A stretch of 64,000 bases of DNA from a virus, in the IMG/VR virus record IMGVR_UViG_3300044837_000097, positions 1 to 64,000 of that record; one strand, written 5' to 3'. Positions within the stretch are counted from its first letter, which is position 1, and every line of letters starts with the position of its first letter. The translations under genes and the position numbers were made by a program. This document shows, piece after piece, positions 1-53,240 of this stretch. The notes beneath the pieces were generated by a model. It was not told the DNA's origin, ran no database searches, and saw only the letters and a list, made by a program, of their open reading frames with translations.

Positions 1-80
1 TGGCGGGGGCAGGCCGCCCCATACCCCCTAAAACGCGCCGGATGCGATTTCGTGACAACCCCGCCGCTATTAGGGCGGAT

Positions 81-109
81 GTCACACCCCCCGGCTTCTG
101 TGGTACAGT
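81..109 (+). promoter_or_regulatory. Weak promoter-like sequence inside first repeat
   Basis: GTCACA and TACAGT are separated by 17 bp. The -10 lies in the first, variant copy of the palindrome, mirroring the stronger promoter at the other end of the array. The -35 matches TTGACA at only four of six positions. Confidence 0.3.
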
Positions 110-418
110 TGACTGTGGGACAGCAAGAAAGGGACCCCCGGCACGTTACTGTGGGACAGTCGTTACTGTGGGACAGTCGTTACTGTGGGACAGTTTTCCG
201 ACAAGTGTTGCTTTTCTGTGGGACAGTCGTTACTGTGGGACAGTCGTTACTGTGGGACAGTCGTTACTGTGGGACAGTCGTTACTGTGGGACAGTCGTTA
301 CTGTGGGACAGTTTTCCGACAAGTGTTGCTTTTCTGTGGGACAGTCGTTACTGTGGGACAGTCGTTACTGTGGGACAGTAAGAAGCCTGTTGACACCCAC
401 CCGGTGTTGTGGTACAGT
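98..418. repeat. Array of 15 palindromic 17-bp repeats (operator, centromere or iteron)
   Basis: The core ACTGTGGGACAGT is an inverted repeat (ACTGT/ACAGT around GGG). Copies start near 98, 113, 149, 166, 183, 216, 233, 250, 267, 284, 301, 334, 351, 368 and 407. Spacing is 17 bp except for two 33-bp steps that share one interruption. The first and last copies carry GGT instead of GGG, which creates a TACAGT -10 hexamer. The array runs straight into the ribbon-helix-helix gene, the usual place for that protein's binding sites. Known RHH arrays serve as plasmid centromeres or operators; which applies here is inference. Confidence 0.9.
390..418 (+). promoter_or_regulatory. Promoter overlapping the last palindromic repeat
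   Basis: TTGACA at 390-395 and TACAGT at 413-418 with a 17-bp spacer. The -10 is the right half of the variant repeat, so a protein bound there would block transcription. Only 7 bp separate the -10 from the start codon at 426, so the transcript should be leaderless or nearly so. Confidence 0.7.
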
Positions 419-425
419 CGGAACC

Positions 426-635
426 ATGAACAGCCCGATGGCAAAATTTCGTCTCCCGCAAGAGTTGCTCGACCACATCAAGCGCCTGTCCGCTGAGTCC
501 GGCATCCCGGTCTCCGAGGTCATTCGCGCTTGCATCGTCCGCGCGCTCCCGTACGTCGAACAGAAAGCCAAAGAGGTAGTAAGCAGTGACGCCGTATATT
601 CTTCGCCTTCCCAAGGTAAAAACAAAACTGTATGA
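426..635 (+). CDS. Ribbon-helix-helix DNA-binding protein
   Basis: A 69-residue protein. Residues about 6-42 fit the RHH fold: a short basic strand (KFRLP), helix 1 (QELLDHIKRLSAE), a turn at SGIPVS, and helix 2 (EVIRACIVRAL). The tail is polar and probably disordered. RHH dimers bind short palindromes in tandem, and 15 such palindromes lie immediately upstream, so autoregulation or a ParG/Omega-like partition role is likely. The ATG at 426 was chosen because the open frame further upstream is only the repeat array. No ribosome binding site is evident, in line with a leaderless message. The stop overlaps the next start (ATGA). Confidence 0.8.
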   Translation: MNSPMAKFRLPQELLDHIKRLSAESGIPVSEVIRACIVRALPYVEQKAKEVVSSDAVYSSPSQGKNKTV

Positions 636-961
636 ACCGCCGCAGCTTCCTCACTTTTCTGGGGGTGGGCATGGCGGCAGTGGTGGTCGCCCCAGTGGCG
701 GTCAAAGCTGTGGTTCCATCCTCGTTTGACACATCAGATTTTCACGAGTGCACATGTGGCGCGCCGAAGCCCTTAATCGGGACGGCAGAAGAGTGGTGTC
801 CTGTGCACGGGAGTAAAGAATGTCTCGAATCCATTACAGCATCCACCAAGGAGTACGCGGACTACGAGTCCTTCTCGGACTTCCAAATATCGAGTGCGAT
901 ACATGCGAGCGTGAACGAAGCCGCCGCGCAACTCGGGTATCGAGCGGGACTGTCGATTTAG
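632..961 (+). CDS. Tat-signal protein with a capsid-like C-terminal segment
   Basis: 109 residues. The N-terminus has a twin-arginine motif (NRRSFLTFLG) followed by a hydrophobic stretch, a plausible Tat signal. A cysteine/histidine cluster follows (CTCG...CPVHG), perhaps metal binding. The last 30 residues resemble a segment of this phage's own major capsid protein (FSDF..I..AI...V...A...LGYRAG.SI). The start overlaps the upstream stop by 4 bp. Function unknown. The 3' third overlaps another open frame, so one of the two may not be real. Confidence 0.55.
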   Translation: MNRRSFLTFLGVGMAAVVVAPVAVKAVVPSSFDTSDFHECTCGAPKPLIGTAEEWCPVHGSKECLESITASTKEYADYESFSDFQISSAIHASVNEAAAQLGYRAGLSI

Positions 962-1500: not shown

Positions 1501-1642
1501 CCACACAGTAGAGGTCACTGTGCGTTCCCCGGCGAAGGCTGACGGGTCGTGTGGCGAGACCGCAACTTTGAAGTTGTCGCCCCAAGAGTTCTACGAGTTG
1601 GCGAGTCGCCTTCACGGCTTCGTTTGCACGAGCGGCGCATGA
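1403..1642 (+). CDS. Small unknown protein
   Basis: Up to 79 residues. ATG codons at 1403 (inside the second copy of the 28-bp duplication) and 1421 are both possible starts, and neither has a good ribosome binding site. The body contains VEVTVRSPAKADG and ends in a helix (PQEFYELASRLHG). It may be the severed C-terminal part of the upstream gene. The stop overlaps the next start (ATGA), which supports translation of this frame. Confidence 0.55.
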   Translation: MVNGNIMRHNLYAYTAPGASYPPYVSVNVESDDHTVEVTVRSPAKADGSCGETATLKLSPQEFYELASRLHGFVCTSGA

Positions 1643-1821
1643 GCAAGAAGAACATCATCAGCAAGACCAAGGTTGACAACAACACCGTTCACGTTCGCTT
1701 CGAGAACCCGGACGGTCACAGAGTTTATGAGTACCGGGGTTCCGCGATGCGCGCGATTATGCGCGGCAAGGACCCGGCAGGACTCACGGGCGGAAGGCTC
1801 GTGGAGCATAAAAAGCCGTGA
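1639..1821 (+). CDS. Small unknown protein, KTSC-like
   Basis: 60 residues, basic at the start. The pattern of a beta-rich segment (VHVRFENPDG..VYEYRG) followed by a small-residue helix loosely recalls KTSC domains, but the match is weak. It sits in a chain of genes whose stops and starts overlap (ATGA at 1639, GTGA at 1818), suggesting translational coupling. Confidence 0.55.
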   Translation: MSKKNIISKTKVDNNTVHVRFENPDGHRVYEYRGSAMRAIMRGKDPAGLTGGRLVEHKKP

Positions 1822-2335: not shown

Positions 2336-2410
2336 GGTGTCGATGGTGTAGCGGCAGCACATGAGATTGTGAATCTCATAGTATGGGTTCGACCCCCATT
2401 CTTCACCCCA
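2336..2410 (+). tRNA. tRNA-His (GTG)
   Basis: Anticodon loop TTGTGAA on a TGAGA/TCTCA stem. T arm ATGGG-TTCGACC-CCCAT. Encoded CCA. The extra G(-1) at 2336 opposite C73 is the histidine identity element. The acceptor stem has two mismatches (positions 4 and 5). Confidence 0.9.
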
Positions 2411-2420
2411 AAAATAGTGC

Positions 2421-2449
2421 TTGACAAACGCAGAAAGTTCTGATACACT
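2421..2449 (+). promoter_or_regulatory. Sigma70-type promoter
   Basis: TTGACA, 17 bp, TACACT, 42 bp before the small secreted protein at 2492. Confidence 0.75.
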
Positions 2450-2491
2450 GGTTTTAGAGTCAAGAAATTATTGACTAAGAAAGAAGGACAA

Positions 2492-2719
2492 ATGAAGATA
2501 GCCACGCTTCTTGCTGCTTTACTGATTGGTGGATTTGTTTTCGCGCAAACGCCAGCACAAGGCGACCACATAGTTCGTCCGTACGTAAAGAGAAACGGCA
2601 CTATCGTTGCTCCCCACTATCAGACGAACCCAAACAAAACTCAGCGGGATAACTACAGCGCGACGGGCCGATACAACCCCCACACGGGACAATCAGGAAC
2701 TAAACACCCGAAGCGTTAA
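2492..2719 (+). CDS. Small secreted protein of the VRxYVRxxGTxV family
   Basis: 75 residues with a clear signal peptide (MKIATLLAALLIGGFVFAQ, cleavage likely after Ala18 or Gln19). The mature part has VRPYVKRNGTIV..HYQTNPN...DNYS..G..NP.TG, a pattern I recognise from many small secreted bacterial proteins of unknown function. ATG 2492 is preferred over the upstream TTG because of the ribosome binding site AAGGA. It has its own promoter and lies between two tRNA genes. Confidence 0.75.
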   Translation: MKIATLLAALLIGGFVFAQTPAQGDHIVRPYVKRNGTIVAPHYQTNPNKTQRDNYSATGRYNPHTGQSGTKHPKR

Positions 2720-2729
2720 AAGTTTCAAT

Positions 2730-2803
2730 CAGGAATTCTGATAGTGGTAGTCTACGGGCGTCGGAAGCCTGAGGTGGTCGTTCGATTCGACCATTCCTGA
2801 CCA
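2730..2803 (+). tRNA. tRNA-Pro (CGG)
   Basis: Perfect 7-bp acceptor CAGGAAT/ATTCCTG with C1-G72 and A73 (proline identity). Anticodon loop GTCGGAA. T loop TTCGATT. CCA encoded. Confidence 0.9.
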
Positions 2804-2808
2804 GTTTC

Positions 2809-2916
2809 ATGCATCAAGGCATTGAGACTATTAAAGAAGAAATTTCTAAATGTGGTGTTGTTTGTTCGAACTGTCATAGAATTCGAACATTCAATCGCAC
2901 AGGAATCGGGGCGTAG
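2809..2916 (+). pseudogene. Fragment of an HNH endonuclease gene
   Basis: A 35-codon open frame encodes IKEEISKCGVVCSNCHRIR, matching the C-terminal C..C-CH half of HNH endonucleases such as the one at 5101-5503 (EEVEKCDVVCSICHTKR). The zinc/HNH N-terminal part is missing. Its end runs into the next tRNA. Probably a decayed homing gene. Confidence 0.65.
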
Positions 2917-2994
2917 GCGGGTAAATGGAAGCCCTCCGCTTTTGGAAAGCGGTGCCTACGGGCCTTGGGTGTTCGAGTTACCCCGTCCCGACCA
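2907..2994 (+). tRNA. tRNA-Pro (TGG) with a long variable arm
   Basis: C1-G72 and A73 are proline-like. Anticodon stem CCGCT/AGCGG with loop TTTGGAA. T loop TTCGAGT, CCA encoded. Between anticodon and T stems there are 14 nt that can form GCC-TACG-GGC, a class II variable arm, which is unexpected in a proline tRNA. Confidence 0.75.
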
Positions 2995-3003
2995 AGTTTC
3001 AGC

Positions 3004-3078
3004 GGAGATAGGGTCAGTTGGTAACGACATGCCCCTGTCACGGGTAAAGTGCGGGTTCGATTCCCGCTATCTCCGCCA
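3004..3078 (+). tRNA. tRNA-Asp (GTC)
   Basis: Perfect acceptor GGAGATA/TATCTCC, G73, CCA. Anticodon loop CTGTCAC. T arm GCGGG-TTCGATT-CCCGC. Confidence 0.9.
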
Positions 3079-3087
3079 AGTTTCAGT

Positions 3088-3162
3088 TCCAATCTGGTCT
3101 AATGGTAGGACACCTCACTGTTAATGAGGAGGGTCCACGTTCGAGTCGTGGGGTTGGAGCCA
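3088..3162 (+). tRNA. tRNA-Asn (GTT), copy 1
   Basis: Acceptor TCCAATC/GGTTGGA, G73, CCA. Anticodon stem CCTCA/TGAGG with loop CTGTTAA. T arm CCACG-TTCGAGT-CGTGG. Confidence 0.92.
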
Positions 3163-3530
3163 ATTTTTGTGGAGCCGTTAGGTTAATCCACAGACGATAC
3201 CCGCAGGGGTGCTCGTTTCAGTTCAGGCCCCTCGGGGCTGTTCGTACTGACGAGCGCCTTTGAGGGAGCTAACGGTGATAACGAGGCGTCTAAAGCACGC
3301 CTACCACAAAGTAGCACACGCCGAAATAACGCGAAAGCGTCGAACATATCGGGCGGCTACTATAATGTTGTCGCGACAGTAACCGAAACGGGCGTCGTCA
3401 TGAAGCGACCCGGTCTCCTCATGAGTGGTGGCGGGCTTGACCTGCAAAGGGACACAAGGTTACGGCGGGGTGAAACCCGCCCAAAGCGCCTCGGCGGGGC
3501 GCGTTGATAAATGCCGCCCGGATTTGTTTC
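3163..3530 (+). ncRNA. Candidate large structured non-coding RNA A
   Basis: About 370 bp without a convincing gene, between two tRNAs. It is dense in potential helices: CCGTTAG/CTAACGG enclosing GCTCGT..ACGAGC and CCCC-TC-GGGG; AGGCGT/ACGCCT; a GNRA hairpin ACGC-GAAA-GCGT; GGCGGG-GTGAAA-CCCGCC; GCGCC/GGCGC. Large ornate RNAs beside phage tRNA genes are known (GOLLD); membership is a guess that a covariance search must decide. Confidence 0.5.
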
Positions 3531-3533
3531 AAT

Positions 3534-3619
3534 CCGCTGGTGATGTAATAGCAGCCATGAATGCCTTAGAAGCATTTGGTCGAAAGACCGTGAAGGTGCA
3601 ACTCCTTCTCAGCGGACCA
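3534..3619 (+). tRNA. tRNA-Leu (TAG)
   Basis: Acceptor CCGCTGG/TCAGCGG, A73, CCA. Anticodon stem AATGC/GCATT with loop CTTAGAA. Long variable arm GGTC-GAAA-GACC. The T loop is TGCAACT, an unusual variant. Confidence 0.85.
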
Positions 3620-3640
3620 TTTTTGTACGTACATTAAGAA

Positions 3641-3671
3641 GGGGGAGCCGTGAACTCCCCCGACTCTTTCA
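3641..3671 (+). promoter_or_regulatory. Decayed copy of the HNH leader hairpin
   Basis: Stem GGGGGAG/CTCCCCC with 7-nt loop CCGTGAA, preceded by the palindrome TGTACGTACA as at 8445. The expected pairing partner TTCACGG is cut after TTCA, and the ribosome binding site and endonuclease gene are absent. It looks like the stump left by deletion of an HNH gene. Confidence 0.7.
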
Positions 3672-3687
3672 GACATCTAGTTTCAGT

Positions 3688-3766
3688 GGTCGCGTCGGGA
3701 AAACGGGATATCCCAATGGCGTTCTAACCCATACAAAAGTAGGTTCGAATCCTACCGCGACTACCA
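3688..3766 (+). tRNA. tRNA-Arg (TCT)
   Basis: Acceptor GGTCGCG/CGCGACT, A73, CCA. Anticodon loop GTTCTAA on ATGG/CCAT with one C-C mismatch next to the loop. T arm GTAGG-TTCGAAT-CCTAC. Confidence 0.85.
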
Positions 3767-3772
3767 TTTTGT

Positions 3773-3847
3773 GGGCTGCTCGTATATCGTATAATGCACA
3801 GCGCTACGAACGCTGGGAGCGGGGTTAGACTCCCCGGTGGCCCTCCA
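3773..3847 (+). tRNA. tRNA-Arg (ACG)
   Basis: Acceptor GGGCTGC/GTGGCCC, CCA. Anticodon stem CAGCG/CGCTG with loop CTACGAA. T arm CGGGG-TTAGACT-CCCCG. Confidence 0.88.
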
Positions 3848-3856
3848 AGTTTAATT

Positions 3857-3943
3857 CGCCTGCTGGTGGAATTGGCAGACACGCCGGATTCAAAACCCGG
3901 TGCCCGAGAGGGCGTTAGAGTTCGAATCTCTAGTTGGCGACCA
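3857..3943 (+). tRNA. tRNA-Leu (CAA)
   Basis: Anticodon loop TTCAAAA on CCGGA/CCCGG. Long variable arm GCCC-GAGA-GGGC. T arm TAGAG-TTCGAAT-CTCTA. A73, CCA. Confidence 0.88.
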
Positions 3944-3975
3944 TTTTGAAATCCATTGACTACGGTCAGGTGATT

Positions 3976-4395
3976 ATGAACAGCAACCAAAGAAAAGATG
4001 CAACGCTAGGAATGCCTCACGGCACCGCGAGTGGCAGACTTCGGAAGATGATTTTGTTCAATCTTTTGAAAAAGCACGGCGAGAATTCCTGCCATGCTTG
4101 CGGAAAGCCGATTGATTCTGTAGATGCTTTGAGTATTGAGCACAAGAAACCGTGGGAAGGGGTATCGGCTGACTTGTTTTGGGATTTAGAAAACATAGCG
4201 TTTTCGCATCTTCGATGTAATACTCCGAACCGCCCTTACAACAATGGTGGGTGGAACAAGAAACCAGCCCCAGAAGGGATGGCGTGGTGCATCGGACATC
4301 AAGTATTCGAACCAGTCGAAAACTTTTGGAAGAACGCAAGTTTTTGGAATGGTCTTGAGAAGTACTGCAAGACGACCAAGATTCGAAATAGATAA
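3976..4395 (+). CDS. HNH homing endonuclease
   Basis: 139 residues. The HNH core is visible: a CHAC zinc pair near residue 37, LSIEHKKPW (first His), and NIAFSHLRCN (Asn and last His with zinc Cys). Free-standing nucleases of this kind cut phage DNA at a target site and spread by repair. It lies between two tRNA-Leu genes and lacks the hairpin leader seen before the other HNH genes. ATG 3976 follows AGGTGA; an upstream in-frame ATG at 3934 lies inside the tRNA and is less likely. Confidence 0.85.
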   Translation: MNSNQRKDATLGMPHGTASGRLRKMILFNLLKKHGENSCHACGKPIDSVDALSIEHKKPWEGVSADLFWDLENIAFSHLRCNTPNRPYNNGGWNKKPAPEGMAWCIGHQVFEPVENFWKNASFWNGLEKYCKTTKIRNR

Positions 4396-4402
4396 AGATT
4401 TT

Positions 4403-4486
4403 GCGCGTGTGGCGGAAAGGCATACGCAGGGGACTTAAAACCCCCGACCGAAAGGTATGAGGGTCCGACTCCCTCGACGCGCACCA
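4403..4486 (+). tRNA. tRNA-Leu (TAA)
   Basis: Acceptor GCGCGTG/GACGCGC (last pair mismatched), A73, CCA. Anticodon loop CTTAAAA on GGGG/CCCC. Variable arm ACC-GAAA-GGT. T arm GAGGG-TCCGACT-CCCTC. Confidence 0.88.
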
Positions 4487-5026
4487 AGTTTGAGCACTGG
4501 CGGTTCGCCGCGTACTTCAAGACGCGAAGTGCGAATCGTCGGAAAACCTACCTCTCATTGAAGACGAGATTGGATGCTCAATTAGTTTAACCCGGATGAT
4601 GCCGAAGTTCACGAGGCGTTCGCCTGCAAAGCGAATTGAAGCAGGTTGGAGTCCTGTCACTGGGTCCACTCATGTCGGATACCCGCGCTTGAACAGCGAG
4701 GGAGTAAGGTCCGAATCGTTTAAACGTGCTATGGTAACGAAAACCGGGGCACACATTTTTGGTAGCGTAGACTAACGCAGGCCGCAAGGCTTGAGGAAGT
4801 TCCTGCCACATCTCAACATCGAACCGTGGAAGTTGCGGGACGCGTAAGCGTACAAGTAAGCCTTCGTACTGAGCAATCAGTCATTGGAGCGAAGTAACTC
4901 TTTTCGGGTGCAAGTTCAAATAGGACCTGAGTGCTTGTTGAGCATGACGAAGGTCGGGTTGAATGCTTAGACGAATGTTAGTCCACGACAGAAGCAGGGC
5001 TACAGCGCCACCAAATAAAAATTTTG
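4487..5026 (+). ncRNA. Candidate large structured non-coding RNA B
   Basis: 540 bp without a convincing open frame. Many local helices: GGCG/CGCC, ACTTC/GAAGT, GTGC..GCAC around GGT/ACC, GCGT-AGACTA-ACGC, AGGCC-GCAA-GGCTT, GGAA-G-TTCC and ACGC-GTAA-GCGT (two GNRA loops). TGGTA/TGCCA can close three of them into one junction. A tRNA-Cys-like fold is embedded at 4592-4669. Large RNA next to, and partly containing, phage tRNAs recalls GOLLD; this is inference. Confidence 0.5.
4592..4669 (+). tRNA. Probable tRNA-Cys (GCA)
   Basis: Anticodon stem TTCGC/GCGAA with loop CTGCAAA. U73 and CCA, as expected for cysteine. D stem TGCC/GGCG. The acceptor pairs only over five positions and the T loop is TTGGAGT instead of TTCGA, so it may be weak or degenerate. 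Confidence 0.55.
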
Positions 5027-5050
5027 ATTGCTGGTTTAGCGGCCAGTAAT
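5027..5050 (+). promoter_or_regulatory. Upstream hairpin of the HNH leader
   Basis: ATTGCTGG/CCAGTAAT, 8 bp with an 8-nt loop, immediately before the loop-pairing hairpin. Similar first hairpins precede the elements at 16651 and 24340. Confidence 0.55.
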
Positions 5051-5051
5051 C

Positions 5052-5097
5052 GGGTGGGCGTCCCTAGAAGACGCCCTCCCAACTCTTTCTAGGAGAG
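5052..5097 (+). promoter_or_regulatory. HNH leader: hairpin whose loop pairs with the ribosome binding site
   Basis: Stem GGGCGTC/GACGCCC extended by GGG/CCC. The 7-nt loop CCTAGAA is the exact complement of TTCTAGG at 5087-5093, whose last bases begin the AGGAG ribosome binding site, four bases before ATG 5101. Confidence 0.8.
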
Positions 5098-5100
5098 CAC

Positions 5101-5503
5101 ATGGTTTGTACCAAATGCCGGACGGATAAATCTGTTGATGATTTTTACGATAGACATAAGACTGATAGCAACGTAGGTCGTAAGAAGTCCATTTGTAAAC
5201 TATGTCAACACAAACGAAACAGGGCATCAAACGCTGGCCGTCGTCGTGAACACAGAGATAGATTAGTTGTGATTAAGACAGAGCGCGGTTGTGCGGATTG
5301 TGGTTTTAGAGGATTGTGCCCCGGCGCTGCACTTTCATCACAGAAAACCAGAAGAGAAGAAGTTTGTTATCGCCCATTGTTTGCTGTATTCGTGGGAAAC
5401 GATTTTAGAAGAAGTAGAAAAGTGTGACGTGGTTTGTTCTATTTGTCATACTAAACGACATCAGTGCGCTGCGATTTCGAGCGGCAGAATACCTCCCTCT
5501 TAA
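5101..5503 (+). pseudogene. HNH endonuclease gene with a frameshift
   Basis: The first frame encodes zinc pairs CTKC, CKLC and CADC. Near 5310-5330 the HNH part (ALHFHHRKP...EEVEKCDVVCSICHTKRH) continues in another frame. A run of four C (TGCCCCGG) sits at the break. Repairing one base would give a typical HNH protein like the one at 8505. The 3' end runs into tRNA-Lys. Most likely a pseudogene; programmed frameshifting is less likely. Confidence 0.75.
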
Positions 5504-5542
5504 GGAGGCTTGGTCTCAGTTCAAGTCTGAGGCGGCGCACCA
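5466..5542 (+). tRNA. tRNA-Lys (CTT)
   Basis: Acceptor GCGCTGC/GCGGCGC, A73, CCA. Anticodon stem CCTCC/GGAGG with loop CTCTTAA. T arm CTCAG-TTCAAGT-CTGAG. Confidence 0.9.
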
Positions 5543-5549
5543 ATTTTCT

Positions 5550-5626
5550 GAGTCGCGGACGCGAGCGGCAGCGTACTCGCCTTTTAAGCGATGGATGTCC
5601 GAGTTCGAGCCTCGGGCGACTCACCA
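5550..5626 (+). tRNA. tRNA-Lys (TTT), copy 1
   Basis: Perfect acceptor GAGTCGC/GCGACTC, A73, CCA. Anticodon loop CTTTTAA on TCGC/GCGA. T arm CCGAG-TTCGAGC-CTCGG. Confidence 0.9.
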
Positions 5627-5741
5627 ATTTTCGAAAGAGACGTGCGCCGCGCACGAGAGCGAAATAATGCGGCGGCGGGCGAATGACGCCCTCAGTCTAC
5701 CAAGACGTTACGAAGAGGTGGAATGCCTCAAAATTTTCTGT
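5627..5741 (+). other. Structured spacer, no gene recognised
   Basis: Contains hairpins GTGCG-CCG-CGCAC, GGGCG-AATGA-CGCCC and GAGG..CCTC and an isolated GTCTACCA. It may be one or two decayed tRNAs, but no complete cloverleaf can be drawn. Confidence 0.4.
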
Positions 5742-5817
5742 ACCCGATTATCAAACTGGTCGTATGAACCTCTCCTACAAAGAGGCTGGCAGAGTTCGAT
5801 TCTCTGATTGGGTACCA
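5742..5817 (+). tRNA. tRNA-Val (TAC)
   Basis: Acceptor ACCCGAT/ATTGGGT, A73, CCA. Anticodon stem CCTCT/AGAGG with loop CCTACAA, so position 33 is C rather than the near-universal U. T arm CAGAG-TTCGATT-CTCTG. Confidence 0.85.
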
Positions 5818-5825
5818 ATTTCTGT

Positions 5826-5913
5826 GGGGACGCAGTTCGCGGTAGAGTGAACGCTTGCGATATCCGGTACCGGACTCGTAAGATGGCGAGGGTGAATGAC
5901 CCTTGGGTTCCCA
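5826..5913 (+). other. tRNA-like unit without CCA
   Basis: Lies between tRNA spacers. D-arm-like GTTC..GAAC with GGTAGAG loop. CTTGC/GTAAG encloses a 19-nt loop holding the palindrome TCCGGTACCGGA. T-arm-like GAGGG-TGAATGA-CCCTT. Closing stem GGGGAC/GTTCCC. No TTCGA loop and no CCA, so it is either decayed or a different small RNA. Confidence 0.4.
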
Positions 5914-5919
5914 GATTTT

Positions 5920-6010
5920 TGTCGGTAGCATCAGTATGCAGCGCGGTTTTATAAACCGCGAAGCTCCAGATGAGAGCGCCGAGAGTGGGCAGCACACTCA
6001 CCGACAACCA
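5920..6010 (+). tRNA. Probable class II tRNA (TAT, Ile-like)
   Basis: Perfect acceptor TGTCGGT/ACCGACA, A73, CCA. Anticodon stem GCGGT/ACCGC with loop TTTATAA. Long variable region with GCTC..GAG pairing. T stem GAGTG/CACTC with atypical loop GGCAGCA. The isotype is uncertain because isoleucine tRNAs are normally class I. Confidence 0.55.
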
Positions 6011-6012
6011 GT

Positions 6013-6087
6013 GGCCCCGTCATCTAGTGGCGAGGATGCCAGCTTCTCAAGCTGGTCACACGAGTTCGACTCTCGTCGAGGCTACCA
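6013..6087 (+). tRNA. tRNA-Glu (CTC)
   Basis: Acceptor GGCCCCG/CGAGGCT, A73, CCA. Anticodon stem CCAGC/GCTGG with loop TTCTCAA. T arm ACGAG-TTCGACT-CTCGT. Confidence 0.88.
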
Positions 6088-6126
6088 AGTTTGAAAATGT
6101 AAGAGGAGCAGTTTTAAGATACTCTC

Positions 6127-6417
6127 ATGGCAAACAACTATAACTCGAATCCGATTTTCATCGACAGCATAATGGCTGCAACCGCGAAGAATAGCGGCGC
6201 GACAACGACCAACCCGTTTCGTATTAAAGAAATTGTGTGGAGTACACCCGGAAGCACCGCAGCAGATTCCGCCGTAATTCAAGACGGCTTGGGTAATGAA
6301 ATTTTCGAACAACAATCAGGTCGAGCAGCACCTGAACTGTTTAATCCGCCAATGGTTATAAATGACTTCAAAGTAACAACTTTGGCAGATGGGCACATTC
6401 TGATTTATTTGGTGTAA
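6127..6417 (+). CDS. Small phage protein, possibly virion
   Basis: 96 residues starting MANNYNSNPIFIDSIMAAT. This opening (MANNY.SNPI..D..MAA) is one I associate with small phage structural proteins, but the role is not established. Beta-rich after residue 30 (IKEIVWSTPG...AVIQDGLGNEIF...MVINDFKVTTL). The gene lies alone between tRNA-Glu(CTC) and tRNA-Glu(TTC). AGAGGAG lies unusually far (about 19 bp) upstream of the ATG. Confidence 0.65.
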   Translation: MANNYNSNPIFIDSIMAATAKNSGATTTNPFRIKEIVWSTPGSTAADSAVIQDGLGNEIFEQQSGRAAPELFNPPMVINDFKVTTLADGHILIYLV

Positions 6418-6451
6418 AGCGCACCGTTATCCGCGCTCTTAGTTTTTCAGT

Positions 6452-6525
6452 GCCGTTATCTGCTATGGGTAGGCAACGAGGCTTTCAACTTCGTAGACAG
6501 GGTTCGAGTCCCTGTAGCGGTACCA
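6452..6525 (+). tRNA. tRNA-Glu (TTC)
   Basis: Acceptor GCCGTTA/TAGCGGT, A73, CCA. Anticodon stem CGAGG/CTTCG with loop CTTTCAA. T arm CAGGG-TTCGAGT-CCCTG. Confidence 0.9.
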
Positions 6526-6531
6526 ATTTTC

Positions 6532-6623
6532 GAAACGCGCCCATTCGTAGAGTGGGCTATCCCGGTCACTGCCGGGCGCTACGACGATAGCGTGAGTCGG
6601 TCAATACGACATCGCAAAGTTTC
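6532..6623 (+). other. tRNA-like unit without CCA
   Basis: D-arm-like GCCCA..TGGGC with GTAGAG loop. CCCG-GTCACTGC-CGGG (CAC in the loop). Long arm CGCTA/TAGCG. T-arm-like GTCG-GTCAATA-CGAC. Outer GAAAC/GTTTC. It occupies a tRNA slot but has no canonical T loop or acceptor, so it may be a decayed tRNA-Val(CAC). Confidence 0.4.
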
Positions 6624-6626
6624 AGT

Positions 6627-6700
6627 GGGGTGCGAGTAGGACGGGAATACGGTTGCCTTGCCCGCATCAAGACGGGGTTCGACTCCCCGGCGCTCCACCA
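6627..6700 (+). tRNA. tRNA-Ala (TGC)
   Basis: Acceptor GGGGTGC/GCGCTCC, A73, CCA. Anticodon loop CTTGCCC on GTTGC/GCATC. T arm CGGGG-TTCGACT-CCCCG. Confidence 0.88.
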
Positions 6701-6755
6701 AATTATAGGAGAGTGATATGACAGTTATACATTAGGTAACTCGGGAGGGTTATTT

Positions 6756-7118
6756 ATGTCTAAGTCATATCGCAAGCCTTGGGGTACGTATGTTGCTGTA
6801 AAGAGCAGCGCACATGCCGATAAGACGTTCGCCGCTCGCGCAATGCGTAGAGCGCAGAATCAGTCCTTGAGAGAAGCAATTCGTGACGACGACTGGGAAG
6901 GCTGGTTGATTCCCGAACGCTACGAGTGCAGAGACAACGATGTGTGGGGTTGGGGCCGAGACGGCAAGCAGCGTCCGATGTACCCGAGCAATCAGTATAA
7001 CAACCCATACGCATACGTATCCAGTCCGACGTGGATGGATGAAGAACAAATCTTCGCACGCTGGGAAGAACGCAAGAGCCACAACGATGATTTTATGGCC
7101 GATGCTTCTCGTAAATAG
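6756..7118 (+). CDS. Unknown phage protein
   Basis: 120 residues, basic N-terminus, Trp-rich middle with NDVWGWGRDGKQ, a motif I recognise from small phage proteins of unknown function. Soluble, no signal peptide. GGGAGG lies 7 bp before the ATG. A 5-codon open frame directly upstream (from 6718) could be a leader peptide. Flanked by tRNA-Ala and tRNA-Ile. Confidence 0.7.
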   Translation: MSKSYRKPWGTYVAVKSSAHADKTFAARAMRRAQNQSLREAIRDDDWEGWLIPERYECRDNDVWGWGRDGKQRPMYPSNQYNNPYAYVSSPTWMDEEQIFARWEERKSHNDDFMADASRK

Positions 7119-7126
7119 TTTTCTGT

Positions 7127-7200
7127 TCCTCGCTCGTCCAATGGCAGGACGCATGCTTGATAGGCGTGTTATCGTGGTTCGAGTCCACGGTGAGGAACCA
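7127..7200 (+). tRNA. tRNA-Ile (GAT)
   Basis: Acceptor TCCTCGC/GTGAGGA, A73, CCA. Anticodon stem CATGC/GCGTG with loop TTGATAG. T arm CGTGG-TTCGAGT-CCACG. Confidence 0.9.
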
Positions 7201-7208
7201 AGTTCGAA

Positions 7209-7272
7209 CAGACACGGGACCCGCTGTACACGGGTTGTCTGCTTCGGTGAGGAACTCCTGATAGGGCACCGA
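7209..7272 (+). other. Two-hairpin RNA in a tRNA slot, GTA loop
   Basis: Hairpin one: CAGACA/TGTCTG around ACCCG-CTGTACA-CGGGT, whose loop would be a tyrosine (GTA) anticodon. Hairpin two: TCGGTG/CACCGA. Tyrosine is the one amino acid lacking a clear tRNA here, but no cloverleaf or CCA is present. Confidence 0.35.
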
Positions 7273-7284
7273 TAAATTTTCTGT

Positions 7285-7361
7285 TGCGGGGTAGAGTTCT
7301 GGTGAACTCCGGTGTCTCATAAGCACACGCAGGCTGGGTTCGATTCCCGCTTCCGCAACCA
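7285..7361 (+). tRNA. tRNA-Met (CAT)
   Basis: Acceptor TGCGGGG/TTCCGCA, A73, CCA. Anticodon loop CTCATAA. T loop TTCGATT on a 4-bp stem. Could be an elongator Met or a lysidine-modified Ile tRNA. Confidence 0.82.
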
Positions 7362-7370
7362 ATTTTCTGA

Positions 7371-7444
7371 GCGGGTGTGGTGTAATGGCAGCACCTCATC
7401 CTTCCAAGTTGAGTGTACGGGTCCGAGTCCCGTCGCCCGCTCCA
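7371..7444 (+). tRNA. tRNA-Gly (TCC)
   Basis: Acceptor GCGGGTG/CGCCCGC, U73, CCA. Anticodon loop CTTCCAA. T arm ACGGG-TCCGAGT-CCCGT. Confidence 0.9.
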
Positions 7445-7452
7445 AGTTTTGA

Positions 7453-7526
7453 GCCTTGATGGTCTAGTGGTAGAACAGTTCCTTGGTAAGGAACAGGTCG
7501 TGGTTCGATTCCACGTCATGGCTCCA
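7453..7526 (+). tRNA. tRNA-Thr (GGT)
   Basis: Acceptor GCCTTGA/TCATGGC, U73, CCA. Anticodon stem GTTCC/GGAAC with loop TTGGTAA. T arm CGTGG-TTCGATT-CCACG. Confidence 0.9.
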
Positions 7527-7534
7527 AGTTTTGA

Positions 7535-7608
7535 GCACGGTTAGTTTAGTGGCAGAACTGCCGCCTTGTAAGCGGTTGGCGTGTGTTCGATTCACACCCT
7601 GTGCTCCA
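7535..7608 (+). tRNA. tRNA-Thr (TGT)
   Basis: Acceptor GCACGGT/CCTGTGC, U73, CCA. Anticodon loop CTTGTAA on GCCGC/GCGGT. T arm GTGTG-TTCGATT-CACAC. Confidence 0.9.
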
Positions 7609-7616
7609 AGTTCTGA

Positions 7617-7690
7617 GCGATGTTGGTGTAGTGGCAGCACGAGACCTTGCCAAGGTCTAGGTATCGTTTCGATTACGATACGTCGCTCCA
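7617..7690 (+). tRNA. tRNA-Gly (GCC)
   Basis: Acceptor GCGATGT/ACGTCGC, U73, CCA. Anticodon stem AGACC/GGTCT with loop TTGCCAA. T arm ATCGT-TTCGATT-ACGAT. Confidence 0.9.
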
Positions 7691-7705
7691 ATTTTAAGAG
7701 GGACT

Positions 7706-8038
7706 ATGACCGACAACATGAGTGGCTCATCTCAGTTCGCTTTGTTTGCTTTAATCGGCGTCGGAGTTTTGGCCTGCTTAGGCGATGCGTACACAACTTT
7801 AAAGGGCTTCGATGTCGGTTTGGTAGAAGGCAATCCTGTTGCTCGTTGGCTTCAAAAGAAATTGGGATTTTCCTTATCGGCTTTTGTTGCAACTGGATTT
7901 TTTCTTGTATCCACTTCGATAATTTCCGTAGTTAGTCCGACTGCCGCGTTTGCAATAGCAGGTGGAGTCATTGCTCTGGAGACGTTCAATACAGTTCGAA
8001 ACTACTTGTTGTTCAAAAAGTACAGTAAGAAAAAGTAA
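7706..8038 (+). CDS. Small multi-span membrane protein, DUF5658-like
   Basis: 110 residues with three hydrophobic segments (about 10-28, 58-75, 78-95). The first span is followed by GDAYTTLKGFDVGLVEGNPVA, reminiscent of DUF5658 proteins (D..TT......E.NP). AGAGGG lies 5 bp before the ATG. Function unknown. It sits between tRNA-Gly and tRNA-Thr. Confidence 0.7.
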   Translation: MTDNMSGSSQFALFALIGVGVLACLGDAYTTLKGFDVGLVEGNPVARWLQKKLGFSLSAFVATGFFLVSTSIISVVSPTAAFAIAGGVIALETFNTVRNYLLFKKYSKKK

Positions 8039-8062
8039 AGATTGTCAATCCACCAGTTTTGA

Positions 8063-8136
8063 GCACGGTTAGTCCAGTGGCAAGACGCTCCCCTCGTAAG
8101 GCAGAAGCGTTGGTTCGATTCCAGCACTGTGCTCCA
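8063..8136 (+). tRNA. tRNA-Thr (CGT)
   Basis: Acceptor GCACGGT/ACTGTGC, U73, CCA. Anticodon loop CTCGTAA. T arm GTTGG-TTCGATT-CCAGC. The 5' half closely matches tRNA-Thr(TGT), so the two are probably duplicates. Confidence 0.88.
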
Positions 8137-8144
8137 GTTTCTAC

Positions 8145-8218
8145 TCGCCTTTAGCTCAGTGGTAGAGCGTCCGGCTGTTAACCGGGTGATGTTGGTTCGA
8201 TTCCAGCAGGGTGAGCCA
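8145..8218 (+). tRNA. tRNA-Asn (GTT), copy 2
   Basis: Acceptor TCGCCTT/AGGGTGA, G73, CCA. Anticodon loop CTGTTAA on TCCGG/CCGGG. T arm GTTGG-TTCGATT-CCAGC. Clearly different in sequence from copy 1. Confidence 0.9.
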
Positions 8219-8222
8219 AGTT

Positions 8223-8352
8223 TCTGTTGTGACGCCGAACGGCAAGGCGCATCTAACATGAGGTAGATTCGAAGGCGGCTTAGTCCGTACGTGCTGACTT
8301 AGACAGCATTCGTCCATCGAGTCTACGTGTGGGTTCGAATCCCATCAACTGA
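8223..8352 (+). other. Enlarged tRNA-like unit, CCA missing
   Basis: Canonical T arm GTGGG-TTCGAAT-CCCAT and acceptor TCTGTTG/CAACTGA, but about 45 nt longer than a tRNA. It has two anticodon-like hairpins (ATCTA/TAGAT and TGCTG-ACTTAGA-CAGCA). The spacer follows directly where CCA should be. Probably a chimera of two tRNA genes. Confidence 0.45.
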
Positions 8353-8362
8353 AAGTTTCAGC

Positions 8363-8438
8363 GAGTCGAAAGTGTTAGTGGCAGCATGTCGGTCTCCAAA
8401 ACCGTACGGTGGGGGTTCAAGTCCCTCTCTTCTCGCCA
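8363..8438 (+). tRNA. tRNA-Trp (CCA)
   Basis: Anticodon loop CTCCAAA on CGGT/ACCG. G73, CCA. T arm GGGGG-TTCAAGT-CCCTC. The acceptor GAGTCGA/TCTTCTC has the same two central mismatches as tRNA-His. Confidence 0.87.
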
Positions 8439-8461
8439 ATTTTTGTACGTACAATTAGAAA

Positions 8462-8500
8462 GAGGGGAGCCGCGAACTCCCCTCAATCCTTTCGCGGGGG
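8462..8500 (+). promoter_or_regulatory. HNH leader: hairpin whose loop pairs with the ribosome binding site
   Basis: Stem GAGGGGAG/CTCCCCTC (8 bp). Loop CCGCGAA is the exact complement of TTCGCGG at 8491-8497, directly before the start codon at 8505. The palindrome TTGTACGTACAA precedes it. Confidence 0.8.
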
Positions 8501-8504
8501 ATTT

Positions 8505-8855
8505 ATGAAGTGCGAATATCACGTTTGTAATAAAGAAGCAGGCACAAAAAGATATTGTTCTCGACCATGTAATACAAAACACCGTATTCACAAGGCAAGA
8601 AAAATTCAAAAACAGAAAGCCGTTGAATATCTCGGCGGTAAGTGCTCTCAGTGTGGATACAGCCGATGCATCGAGGCACTTCATTTTCACCACTTGAGAG
8701 ACAAACTTTTTGAAATCGGTAAGATGATTGGCTATCGTCAGGCGTGGTTAAAAATTCAAGCAGAACTAGATAAGTGTGTTTTACTTTGCGCCAACTGCCA
8801 TCATGAGTTTCATTACGGAGGGTTGACAGAACCCGGCATTGTGTCCGCTTGCTAA
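8505..8855 (+). CDS. HNH homing endonuclease
   Basis: 116 residues. N-terminal zinc ribbon (CEYHVCNK...CSRPC), then CSQCG, ALHFHHL (first His of HNH) and CVLLCANCHHEFH (Asn-Cys-His-His). A typical free-standing phage HNH nuclease. The last 13 codons overlap tRNA-Ser(GCT), suggesting insertion next to or into a tRNA site. Translation start is covered by the hairpin-loop pairing described at 8462. Confidence 0.87.
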   Translation: MKCEYHVCNKEAGTKRYCSRPCNTKHRIHKARKIQKQKAVEYLGGKCSQCGYSRCIEALHFHHLRDKLFEIGKMIGYRQAWLKIQAELDKCVLLCANCHHEFHYGGLTEPGIVSAC

Positions 8856-8906
8856 GCGGCAGCCACCCGAGAGGGTGTGTAGGTTCAAATCCTACACCTT
8901 CCGCCA
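8817..8906 (+). tRNA. tRNA-Ser (GCT)
   Basis: Perfect acceptor GGAGGGT/ACCTTCC, G73, CCA. Anticodon loop TTGCTAA on CCGC/GCGG. Variable arm CACCC-GAGA-GGGTG. T arm GTAGG-TTCAAAT-CCTAC. Confidence 0.9.
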
Positions 8907-8913
8907 ATTTTAC

Positions 8914-9000
8914 GGATGATTGGGCTTCATGGGGAGCAGCAGTCTTGAAAACTGTCCCGACTGAAAGGTCGAGAGGGTTCGATTCCTTCATCATCCGCCA
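8914..9000 (+). tRNA. tRNA-Ser (TGA)
   Basis: Perfect acceptor GGATGAT/ATCATCC, G73, CCA. Anticodon loop CTTGAAA. Variable arm GACT-GAAA-GGTC. T arm GAGGG-TTCGATT-CCTTC. Confidence 0.9.
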
Positions 9001-9005
9001 TTTAT

Positions 9006-9090
9006 GGAAGACAGTGCGAATGGCTCGCAACGGGTTTCGAACACCCGACCAGCCGCAAGGCTGACAGCTCAATTCTGTTCTCTTCCCCCA
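9006..9090 (+). tRNA. tRNA-Ser (CGA)
   Basis: Acceptor GGAAGAC/CTCTTCC, CCA. Anticodon stem CGGGT/ACCCG with loop TTCGAAC. Variable arm AGCC-GCAA-GGCT. T loop CTCAATT is unusual and position 73 is C rather than G. Confidence 0.75.
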
Positions 9091-9091
9091 T

Positions 9092-9166
9092 CCCGTGCTA
9101 GTGTTAGCGGTAGCACCCCGGCTTGAAACCCCGGTAGGTAAGGTTCGAATCCTTAGAGCGGGACCA
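9092..9166 (+). tRNA. tRNA-Phe (GAA)
   Basis: Acceptor CCCGTGC/GAGCGGG, A73, CCA. Anticodon loop TTGAAAC on CCGG/CCGG. T arm TAAGG-TTCGAAT-CCTTA. Confidence 0.85.
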
Positions 9167-9174
9167 AGTTTCTG

Positions 9175-9255
9175 TGCCTCGGTAGCTCAGAGCGATAAGA
9201 GCAATCGGTTTTTAACCGATAGGTCGTCCGCGCTGCGTCGGATTCGAGGCTTCCA
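9175..9255 (+). tRNA. tRNA-Lys (TTT), copy 2, divergent
   Basis: Acceptor (T)GCCTCG/CGAGGC, CCA. D arm AGCTC..GAGC. Anticodon stem ATCGG/CCGAT with loop TTTTTAA. The T arm lacks TTCGA (TCCG..CGGA), so function is uncertain. Confidence 0.65.
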
Positions 9256-9264
9256 ATTTTCTGT

Positions 9265-9338
9265 TGAGATGTCGTTTAATGGTAGGACAAGCGGCTTTGA
9301 CCCGCTGAATAAAGGTTCGAATCCTTTCGCCTCAACCA
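9265..9338 (+). tRNA. tRNA-Gln (TTG)
   Basis: Acceptor TGAGATG/CGCCTCA, A73, CCA. Anticodon stem AGCGG/CCGCT with loop CTTTGAC. T arm AAAGG-TTCGAAT-CCTTT. Confidence 0.9.
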
Positions 9339-9343
9339 ATCTC

Positions 9344-9426
9344 GCGTCGTCGGTCAGGTACTTTGAGAGCGCGGCTAGACGCAATCTCGGAGGAAAAGGA
9401 CCCCATCGCCCTAGTGGGGACGGCGT
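9344..9426 (+). other. tRNA-like unit without CCA
   Basis: Outer stem GCGTCGTC/GACGGCGT (8 bp). T-arm-like CCCAT-CGCCCTA-GTGGG. A small hairpin GCG-CGGCTAGA-CGC in the anticodon position. No TTCGA loop and no CCA. Confidence 0.4.
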
Positions 9427-9436
9427 TTATTTCTGT

Positions 9437-9510
9437 TCGGATGTCTTTCAACGGTAGGAAGCGCGGCTCTGAACCGCGTAATGCACGTTCGAGTCGTGCC
9501 GCCCGAACCA
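9437..9510 (+). tRNA. tRNA-Gln (CTG)
   Basis: Acceptor TCGGATG/CGCCCGA, A73, CCA. Anticodon stem CGCGG/CCGCG with loop CTCTGAA. T arm GCACG-TTCGAGT-CGTGC. Last tRNA of the array. Confidence 0.9.
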
Positions 9511-48900: not shown

Positions 48901-49078
48901 TTTTCTTCTCCACGAATCGGCAGAACACCACGCCGTAAAAACGGTCGTTATCTTTGGTCAAGTTCACCGAGACGACCTCTTGGTTCTCGCTATCCTCAAT
49001 CAGTTCCAACTCCCCTTCCATACGTCTGACGATGGAGTGGAATTCTTTATCAACATATTTGAACGAGTGGATTATCAT
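48890..49078 (-). CDS. Small unknown protein
   Basis: 62 residues from the ATG that overlaps the NAMPT stop (ATGA). Sequence MIIHSFKYVDKEFHSIV, then an acidic middle and beta strands (VVSVNLTKDNDRFYGVVF). Coupled to the NAD gene pair and perhaps related in function. Confidence 0.62.
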   Translation of the reverse strand: MIIHSFKYVDKEFHSIVRRMEGELELIEDSENQEVVSVNLTKDNDRFYGVVFCRFVEKKNAG

Positions 49079-50634: not shown

Positions 50635-51493
50635 CTCTCACCTCGTTGAACGTGTCGTATTCCTGTCCCTTGATGCTGTAACCGGAAATGTACAACTCGG
50701 TGATTCCGCCGTCCGCCGCCAGCACTTGAGTGCCTTTGGAGAAGATACCGTGGCTGACGTACAGCGCCAGTTTTATATTCGGATTCTTTTTCTTGATGAG
50801 TTGGCCCAACCCGACGAAGGTTCCGCCGCCATCGCAGATGTCATCAATAATCAGAGCGGACTTGTAATACTTGATGCCGGAACCAATCTTGAATCCGGTC
50901 AGTTTGCCCGTCGCCGCATCTCGAATCTTGCCAGCGACCAGTACAGGCAGTTTATACTTGCTGAGGTCGTAACGCTTCGCCGCGCCAACGTCCGGGAGCA
51001 CCAGCACCAAACTCTTCTTGCCCATATCCTGAATGATTGGAAGAAGTTGGTCGGTGGGTTCATAGGTTGGCAGCACGTTCACGATACCGTACGCCCTCGC
51101 TAGTCCCGCATTGTGAGCATCGAAGGTCCATACGCTAGTGAACTCCAACGCCTCGATAAATTTCATGAAGATTCCGAAACCGTGAGAGTCGCCATCCACG
51201 AAGCGGCGGTCAGCGCGGGCGTACGGCAGATATGGAAGAAAAAGACTACGCTCTCGAAACAGTCGGCCCTTCGTTTTAAACGCGGTGTACTGAATCGCGT
51301 CGTTCAGTTGCGCGAGTTCAATCACATCCGGGATGGGATTGGCGACGATTTCGTACGCGTCCACGCCGTCCTTCAAAACCGCTGCGATGCCGTTCGCAGT
51401 CAAGCGGGTCTGGATTTCCCCAGCCGGATACTTGATGACCTCATACAACTTGCCTCGGTCATCAGGAATGTTGAATTTCATTTTCATTCTCAT
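50543..51493 (-). CDS. Ribose-phosphate pyrophosphokinase-like (Prs/Adps)
   Basis: 316 residues. Prs hallmarks: LPYLPYARADRRF near 87-99, FDAHN, and the PRPP-binding loop IIDDICDGGGTF near 215. It transfers pyrophosphate from ATP to ribose-5-phosphate, or to ADP-ribose if it is the Adps enzyme of NARP1. The frame ends inside the NAMPT gene (92-bp overlap), so the last 30 residues are family-atypical. Several ATGs at the start follow AAAGGAAAAG. Confidence 0.85.
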   Translation of the reverse strand: MRMKMKFNIPDDRGKLYEVIKYPAGEIQTRLTANGIAAVLKDGVDAYEIVANPIPDVIELAQLNDAIQYTAFKTKGRLFRERSLFLPYLPYARADRRFVDGDSHGFGIFMKFIEALEFTSVWTFDAHNAGLARAYGIVNVLPTYEPTDQLLPIIQDMGKKSLVLVLPDVGAAKRYDLSKYKLPVLVAGKIRDAATGKLTGFKIGSGIKYYKSALIIDDICDGGGTFVGLGQLIKKKNPNIKLALYVSHGIFSKGTQVLAADGGITELYISGYSIKGQEYDTFNEVRDGRLHRLQRRSMVGRYEPDFPHRLLQVRTR

Positions 51494-51922: not shown

Positions 51923-52365
51923 GATACCTTCCTCCTCGCGCGGCCAAGTTCCCAAGCGATTCGACAAAGGCGTCGAATCTCGGGACTCTTGGTCGTGTCC
52001 CACGAATTGAACCAGTCCTCGAAACGGTCAAATAGCGGCGTTGACTCCGCGCGACGTGCCTCGGATTGTAGGTCGATGATGACCTTGCCGAGCGCGCCGA
52101 TGTCAACCGGATAATACTTGCCCTCTATCCAAACGCCGAAGCCGTGAGGCGCACCGCCGACAATCTCTAAAGGCTGCGGTGCTTGGTTCACCACCTTCAA
52201 CTTGGATGCGAGAAATGCGCCCTTCTGCCTGATGGCCTCCCCGCTCTCCATCGAGACCGACGCGAACGTGTTTTTTCTAAACGTGAACAAATCAACCACT
52301 GTGCCGACCCCGGCCCAGTAGCAGTTTAGCTCTTTTGTGACTAAAACCTTGTCTCCGATGTTCAT
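51919..52365 (-). CDS. Unknown protein with SH3-like start
   Basis: 148 residues. The first 55 (GDKVLVTKE..CYWAGVGTVVDLF, FASVSMESGEAIR..GAFLASKLKVV) look like a small beta-barrel. Then VWIEGKYYPVDIGALGKVI and a helical end. The start overlaps the integrase stop (ATGA), so it is translated with it. Confidence 0.62.
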   Translation of the reverse strand: MNIGDKVLVTKELNCYWAGVGTVVDLFTFRKNTFASVSMESGEAIRQKGAFLASKLKVVNQAPQPLEIVGGAPHGFGVWIEGKYYPVDIGALGKVIIDLQSEARRAESTPLFDRFEDWFNSWDTTKSPEIRRLCRIAWELGRARRKVS

Positions 52366-53240
52366 AGTTGAAACCCCAGTCCGGCTTTTTCAGACCAATC
52401 TTTGCGTGCAGCGATTTCGTTGCCGACCTTCGTATATCGAGCGGTGACATCTTTTCCGGCGTGACCCGCCCAAAACTTAATAAGAGATTCCGGCACGCTG
52501 GCGAGTTCGAGGTGCGTGATACGGAAGCGGCGTAGCGCATGAAAGCCTTCGATGCCGAGCGCCTTGAACTTGCGGCGATACGTGCTCTCTGAATCGGGGA
52601 ACATTGGGCCTTCCAAATTCGCGAATTGCGAACGCAGAAGGGCGTTGACTTCCGGGTGCAGGTCCACGGTGCGTTTCCCGGCCTTGGTCTTGGGTGCGGG
52701 CTGAAATGTGCCCATAACGAGGGTCCCAGAGACCGTAATCGACCCTTGTATGGGGTCCCAGACGTTCCCTTGCCCGATAGCCAGCGTCTCTCCGATTCTA
52801 AGGCCCGTGGAGGCTAGGATGGCTACCAAGGCTTGGATAGAGCCGTTTGTCGTTTCTAGGGCATTCTGGAGCGTTTGGGAAGCCGTTATGGGGGCCTTCT
52901 GGGTGTCCGGGTCCACCTTTGGGGCCTTGATGAAGTCCGAGTTCCAAACCACCGGGTGGAGGCAGTTGCCGCGCGAATCCACCGCGCTCTTGACAATCTG
53001 CTTTACAAGGGTGACCGCCAAGCTTATCGTGGCGGGACTGAGTTCAGCCTCCGCGAGACGGCTGACCAGCGACTTAGCGGTCTTGTTGTCCACCTCCGCA
53101 AGGTCCAACCCACCGATGGCGGGAAGGATGCGGCGGTCCAGAAGAGAACGATAAACGTGGAGGGTATTGGGACGTGCGGCCCCCGCGATGTCGGCAATAT
53201 ACGCCTCGGCTTGTTCTGCAAACGTCAATGCGCTCTCCAT
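52362..53240 (-). CDS. int: Tyrosine recombinase (phage integrase)
   Basis: 292 residues. N-terminal SAM-like core-binding domain (about 5-90). Catalytic residues: Arg148 in STGLRIGE, a Lys near 186, His234 and Arg237 in HALRR, His260 in WAGHAG, nucleophile Tyr269 in TARYTK. It would integrate the genome or resolve multimers. Its promoter ends only a few bases before the ATG, so the message is probably leaderless. Confidence 0.92.
   Translation of the reverse strand: MESALTFAEQAEAYIADIAGAARPNTLHVYRSLLDRRILPAIGGLDLAEVDNKTAKSLVSRLAEAELSPATISLAVTLVKQIVKSAVDSRGNCLHPVVWNSDFIKAPKVDPDTQKAPITASQTLQNALETTNGSIQALVAILASTGLRIGETLAIGQGNVWDPIQGSITVSGTLVMGTFQPAPKTKAGKRTVDLHPEVNALLRSQFANLEGPMFPDSESTYRRKFKALGIEGFHALRRFRITHLELASVPESLIKFWAGHAGKDVTARYTKVGNEIAARKDWSEKAGLGFQL

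Follow-up and report, generated by a model that had tools for sequence, protein, structure and literature searches.

A candidate autoregulatory operator array at a ribbon-helix-helix gene in a group of large soil phages

Arc of phage P22, a member of the MetJ/Arc superfamily of ribbon-helix-helix (RHH) proteins, uses a single short operator. Other viral RHH proteins, namely F55, SvtR and AvtR, offer precedents for binding to tandem sites or for spreading along the DNA over promoters: F55 binds tandem repeats over early promoters as well as over its own promoter, and the autorepressor AvtR of AFV6 covers about 100 nt between two promoters and is thought to oligomerise along the DNA (PMC5569661). 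In Cluster A mycobacteriophages, the repressor Rep and its many stoperator sites diverge together among relatives, resulting in different immunity types (PMC6550527).

Here, a locus is described in which a small putative RHH repressor gene is preceded by a dense array of palindromes overlapping its own promoter. The window analysed comprises the first 64 kb (64,000 nucleotides) of an 82,715-bp viral record (G000) from soil, the phage having a size of roughly 100 kb. The features of the locus are listed in Table 1.

Table 1. Features of the window discussed in the text
Feature	Position	Strand	Remarks
Right end of conserved non-coding hub	1..97	.	aligned with hub ends of seven relatives
Weak promoter P1 (predicted)	81..109	+	GTCACA-17-TACAGT, extended -10 TGTGG
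Predicted operator array	98..417	.	15x YTGTGGKACAG, 5-bp arms, 3-bp centre, mostly 17-bp pitch
118-bp tandem duplication, copy 1	144..261	+	118 x 2, 100%
118-bp tandem duplication, copy 2	262..379	+	118 x 2, 100%
Promoter P2 (predicted)	390..418	+	TTGACA-17-TACAGT; extended -10 inside last operator copy (407-417)
RHH (Arc/CopG-like) putative repressor gene, 69 aa	426..635	+	PF01402; AlphaFold model with Arc as best PDB match; closest relative right-hand RHH of G022
Tat-signal protein gene	632..961	+	ATGA overlap with RHH gene; counterparts in G009 and G007 in the same position
60-aa conserved gene, anchor for finding hubs	1639..1821	+	1.0 kb downstream of RHH gene
Tyrosine integrase gene	52362..53240	-	phrog_1 1.4e-32; PF14659 over cut-off, PF00589 just below

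The array, its promoters and the RHH gene

The array consists of 15 copies of the word (A)CTGT-GGK-ACAG(T), all on the + strand, which start at positions 98, 113, 149, 166, 183, 216, 233, 250, 267, 284, 301, 334, 351, 368 and 407; 14 are exact copies of CTGTGGKACAG and the one at 407 reads TTGTGGTACAG. The fifteen-copy palindromic array reported in an earlier note on this DNA is thus confirmed, the copy number being approximate as this is a metagenome assembly with the contig starting only 97 bp before the array. The exact word is absent from the rest of the 82,715-bp record, where there is a single site with one mismatch, at 19590.

The spacing of the copies is 17 bp in nine of 14 instances and 33 bp in two (183 to 216 and 301 to 334), the outer spacings being 15, 36 and 39 bp. 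Since the CGTT linker is asymmetric, 17 bp is the pitch of the repeat and not, as had been assumed, the length of the palindrome, which in most copies is 13 bp (ACTGT-3-ACAGT). Nor are the copies phased in the sense of the earlier note: a pitch of 17 bp corresponds to about 1.6 helical turns, so that neighbouring copies lie on different faces of the DNA, and shared helical phasing could be ruled out because the pitches of 17, 22 and 33 bp found across different phages have no common phase. Both 33-bp interruptions are present, but they are not independent, and their filler is identical because both belong to one perfect 118-bp tandem duplication.

Inspection of the individual copies further bears out that the centre GGT is limited to the two outermost ones, the 13 inner copies all having GGG. 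The inner copies do not differ from one another, and the outer pair departs from them at exactly the base that makes the -10 hexamer; this argues against a promoter element expanded in tandem without a function and against a copy-number artefact of the assembly, as does the recurrence of arrays of the same type but with other sequences in independent relatives (see below). Although the perfect duplication, the start of the contig at the repeat and the metagenomic origin of the assembly would all be in line with such an expansion or artefact, we therefore deem it highly improbable.

A promoter scan returned P2 as the sole promoter-like site within positions 1 to 1000, and the claim that promoter and operator coincide at both ends of the array holds in full at this right-hand edge, where the last copy provides the -10 element. 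The left-hand copy gives P1 the same extended -10, in agreement with the consensus of the phage family, but the -35 of P1 is weak (GTCACA, 8/12 in all) and lies under the scan threshold. From 80 promoter-like sites in related phages this consensus is TTGACA-17/18 followed by TGTGnTAnnnT, so that the operator TGTGGTACAGT of the window equals the family's extended -10, whereas the inner GGG copies have lost the first T of the hexamer. At the right end of the hub in L127, the same TGTGGTACAGT promoter element is found without an array and without an RHH gene before the next conserved gene, a different first gene being located behind it. Therefore, the operator probably grew out of a promoter element, and it would then have multiplied in a promoter-dead form. 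The ATG of the RHH gene coincides with the predicted transcription start of P2, and from this spacing its mRNA is possibly leaderless.

In line with the earlier prediction of an RHH gene downstream of the array, the product of 426-635 matches PF01402 with 22 bits (cut-off 20.5). The AlphaFold model has helices at residues 12-25 and 29-57 with high confidence, the N-terminal strand being unassigned in the monomer model, and is Arc-like. Indeed, P22 Arc is the top PDB match by sequence score as well as by structure, with a Foldseek E of 0.065 that alone would not be significant for so short a protein. The scores are hence weak but concordant in placing the predicted protein in the RHH_1 family with its Arc/CopG fold. 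Its closest relative is the right-hand RHH protein of G022 (E 1.5e-9), and by sequence it is a member of the right-hand group.

CopG-type RHH proteins are also common antitoxins, and the protein has a weak match to CopG_antitoxin (PF12441; 18.6 bits versus a cut-off of 28), which raises the question of whether it belongs to a type II toxin-antitoxin operon autoregulated at multiple sites. However, the adjacent gene at 632-961 codes for a Tat-signal protein and for no recognisable toxin, and its counterparts in G009 and G007 reside at the equivalent place without a right-hand RHH gene beside them. The locus was accordingly not classified as a type II toxin-antitoxin system, and an antitoxin function appears extremely improbable. 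Further downstream, a perfect 28-bp tandem duplication (1365-1420) lies within an ORF at 820-1500.

The hub and its counterparts in related phages

A non-coding hub, whose right end is conserved and adjoins the array, constitutes the divergence point of a leftward and a rightward arm, genes being mostly leftward to the left of the hub and mostly rightward to the right of it. The first 97 bp of the window align to the hub ends of seven relatives (CGCCCC...TTCGTGRCAA...GTCAC), and a left hub module would be expected beyond the contig start. G000 is colinear with G009, and the comparison implies that roughly 14 kb are absent between the end and the start of the contig. In direct searches of phage, plasmid and IMG/VR collections, neither the array nor the RHH protein gave any relatives; the hub relatives were reached only via flanking genes (terminase and the 60-aa anchor gene) and a hub motif.

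Each readable hub has a palindrome of its own, AACCGGGCACGGTT in G009, AACCGCATGCGGTT in G007, CCTATATAGG in G022 and CCGATATCGG in L113, while those of G020, G021, G023 and G024 have the palindrome core TGATATCA, and the relatives' palindromes are almost entirely restricted to the hub. A left RHH gene reading leftward is present in seven records (G007, G009, G020, G022, G023, G024 and L113), whereas none was found in G025 and G026; the record of G021 ends before the corresponding position. The logic of the window, where an operator copy sits on the -10 of the RHH gene's own promoter, is followed in the relatives: in five left RHH promoters a TTGACA -35 is followed at once by a perfect palindrome, and those of G009 and L113 have the same layout with imperfect palindromes.

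The left RHH proteins of G020 and G024 have in common both the strand RVLLQF and the operator core TGATATCA, and most other RHH strands pair with other operators, albeit in a small sample. However, as the left RHH of G023 has the strand KRFITQL and yet the TGATATCA core, strand and operator do not correspond one-to-one. G022 and G024 each possess a left and a right RHH gene with separate repeats, the right-hand ones (GTGGAACCCAC in G022 and GGGGCCCC in G024) falling within the RHH coding sequence, where they might reflect a peptide repeat. Such right-hand repeats within RHH coding sequence are located at L080:4593-4874 and L083:4847-5161, and although synonymous codons were available, the five copies in L080 all have the same 11-bp word GTGGAACCCAC. 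In L113, its left-type palindrome occurs at both ends of the hub and one RHH gene was found, as if one repressor served both arms.

Several other repeats were noted in these genomes. A doublet of TTGCTCCCCCAGCA, about 214-226 bp apart, is found in the non-coding right part of the hubs of L077-L081 and L113. The motif GTGTCATA is repeated in the hubs of L078-L083 and nearly absent elsewhere, GGTTATAGAA taking its place in G009. Outside the hub, the spacer of a TTGACA promoter contains another palindrome, (A)GTTGCAAC(T), in three phages (G009:49296, G020:90130, G023:25472), which may indicate an additional regulator. Clusters of repeats inside G013 and terminally in G011, G018 and G019 were set aside as they resemble pentapeptide-repeat coding sequence, and telomere-like AACCCTAACC repeats are present at both ends of the 111.5-kb viral contig G013 (L039:28, L044:11411).

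Taking together the array, its overlap with the promoters, the RHH assignment, the conserved position at the divergence of the arms and the pairing of RHH genes with palindromes in the relatives, the locus is likely to be a cooperative, autoregulatory multi-site operator array of an Arc-like RHH repressor at the head of the rightward arm. In this scenario, RHH dimers would bind the 13-bp palindromes cooperatively along the array, and a filled array would cover P2 at its right edge and the weak P1 at its left edge. Since the extended -10 of P2 (and of P1) is itself an operator, binding would block the promoter, and with enough repressor present the RHH gene would be shut off along with the head of the rightward arm. 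Binding, cooperativity and repression are what we infer from this arrangement; the whole hub may, somewhat less securely, be an early-control or immunity region in which left and right RHH repressors govern the two arms. Of the functions proposed earlier, that of cooperative operators of the RHH gene is thus well supported by the relatives, which at the same syntenic site appear to pair other RHH proteins with other palindromes, the palindrome lying within the RHH promoter. A point against an autoregulatory function is that 15 sites far exceed the need of simple autoregulation.

Replication, partition and lysogeny

The hub might alternatively be the phage origin, in which case the RHH arrays would regulate initiation much as plasmids control their copy number, and autorepression would be secondary. 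In each of the seven relatives whose left hub is readable, the 60-bp stretch of highest AT content in the record falls inside the hub, and in six of them between two left operators; a second repeated motif, TATGACACAAT, and its replacements are interspersed with the operators and nearly restricted to the hub; and in G009, G020 and G023, as well as in the fragments G000, G007 and G021, the turn of the GC skew is at the hub or close to it. In G022 and G024, however, the skew minimum is not at the hub, the array of the window itself lies on the right and lacks an AT-rich segment, and the hub is without any identified initiator gene, which makes an origin function as the main role unlikely. An origin in the left half of the hub, a part outside the window, would fit these observations. 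Somewhat more plausible, although still doubtful, is a combined arrangement in which RHH repressors of differing specificity, each with its own diversifying operators, flank an origin and together govern transcription of the arms, firing of the origin and the immunity type, with no known partition ATPase involved.

An RHH protein on repeat arrays with matched, diversifying specificity also resembles ParR/parC, and the earlier note had considered a plasmid centromere. If it served an extrachromosomal prophage as a partition centromere (ParR/parC or ParG/Omega type), the array would have precedents in parC of plasmid pCW3 with its 17-bp direct repeats (PMC9426499) and in phage B83, for which iterons were reported together with a ParM-like and an RHH protein (PMC6669507). 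However, the gene following the RHH gene is that for the Tat-signal protein, which in G009 and G007 is found at the same place without the right-hand RHH. Moreover, the search for a ParA-type ATPase that the note had proposed detected none in 13 phage records (PF13614; controls 14/14 positive), and ParM (PF06406) was not found in six phages, with the plasmid R100 control detected at 6e-83 and G000 being without roughly 14 kb. Given these negative results with positive controls, no known partition system (ParMRC of type II, or ParA with a ParG/Omega protein of type Ib) is supported, and a centromere function is very unlikely.

Plasmid-like or lysogenic maintenance had further been proposed on account of the integrase. 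The integrase is real, with relatives in G009 (60%) and G019 (39%), and makes lysogeny possible; a search of sequenced genomes yielded no prophage, the single match being a 36.7-kb contig titled 'uncultured archaeon'. By its terminase, the phage group is distantly related to the Acidobacteriota phage Tunturi_3, for which lytic growth is described and recombinase/integrase genes are likewise annotated (PMC11924767). Dispersed stoperators could be ruled out, as exact operators are confined to the hub within this record; any lysogeny repressor with genome-wide effect would therefore need to act via the hub alone. What the locus does present of the phage-immunity pattern is the diversification of RHH proteins and operators together with an integrase, and hub specificity would, by analogy, diversify like an immunity region.

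With respect to other genes, an Rfam scan of the region returned tRNAs only, and 31 tRNA genes lie on the + strand at 2337-9510 between hub and terminase. On the minus strand at 49075-51493, adjacent genes for nicotinamide phosphoribosyltransferase and ribose-phosphate pyrophosphokinase likely form an NAD+ salvage pair. A UvrD-like helicase ORF of 1146 aa (L009:4968-8408, record 68968-72408) is apparently interrupted by intein-like segments, its best match in G009 spanning just 288 aa.

Overall, the autoregulatory operator array as the preferred reading suggests a self-regulating switch that diversifies quickly, and not a plasmid centromere. The hubs offer a natural series in which small putative repressors occur with differing DNA words at a constant position across related genomes, which permits the direct study of RHH specificity, of the growth of an operator from a promoter element and of phage immunity types. 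In addition, they point to a likely control centre, perhaps an origin, in large soil phages of a group that has received little study.

Comparison with known systems

The partition loci ParR/parC of R1 and pCW3 (PMC9426499) are similar in that an RHH protein is paired with an array of repeats and the two are matched and diversify in specificity, but they require ParM, which was not found in the six phages searched. With P22 Arc, the protein shares the predicted fold and the nature of a small phage-encoded putative repressor; sequence identity is about 25%, however, and there are 15 sites here. Compared by arrangement, and with no sequence kinship implied, F55, the RHH lysogeny regulator of the archaeal virus SSV1, likewise has tandem repeats overlapping promoters including its own, as predicted here from sequence; in contrast to the one dense array of the window, its sites are distributed among several promoters, each of which has two repeats. 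AvtR of AFV6 parallels the predicted autorepressing RHH protein over an array between two promoters, but has two RHH motifs per chain and degenerate sites. Finally, repressor and sites diverge in step among relatives as in the Cluster A mycobacteriophages, where, however, Rep is a helix-turn-helix repressor and its 13-bp sites are scattered genome-wide.
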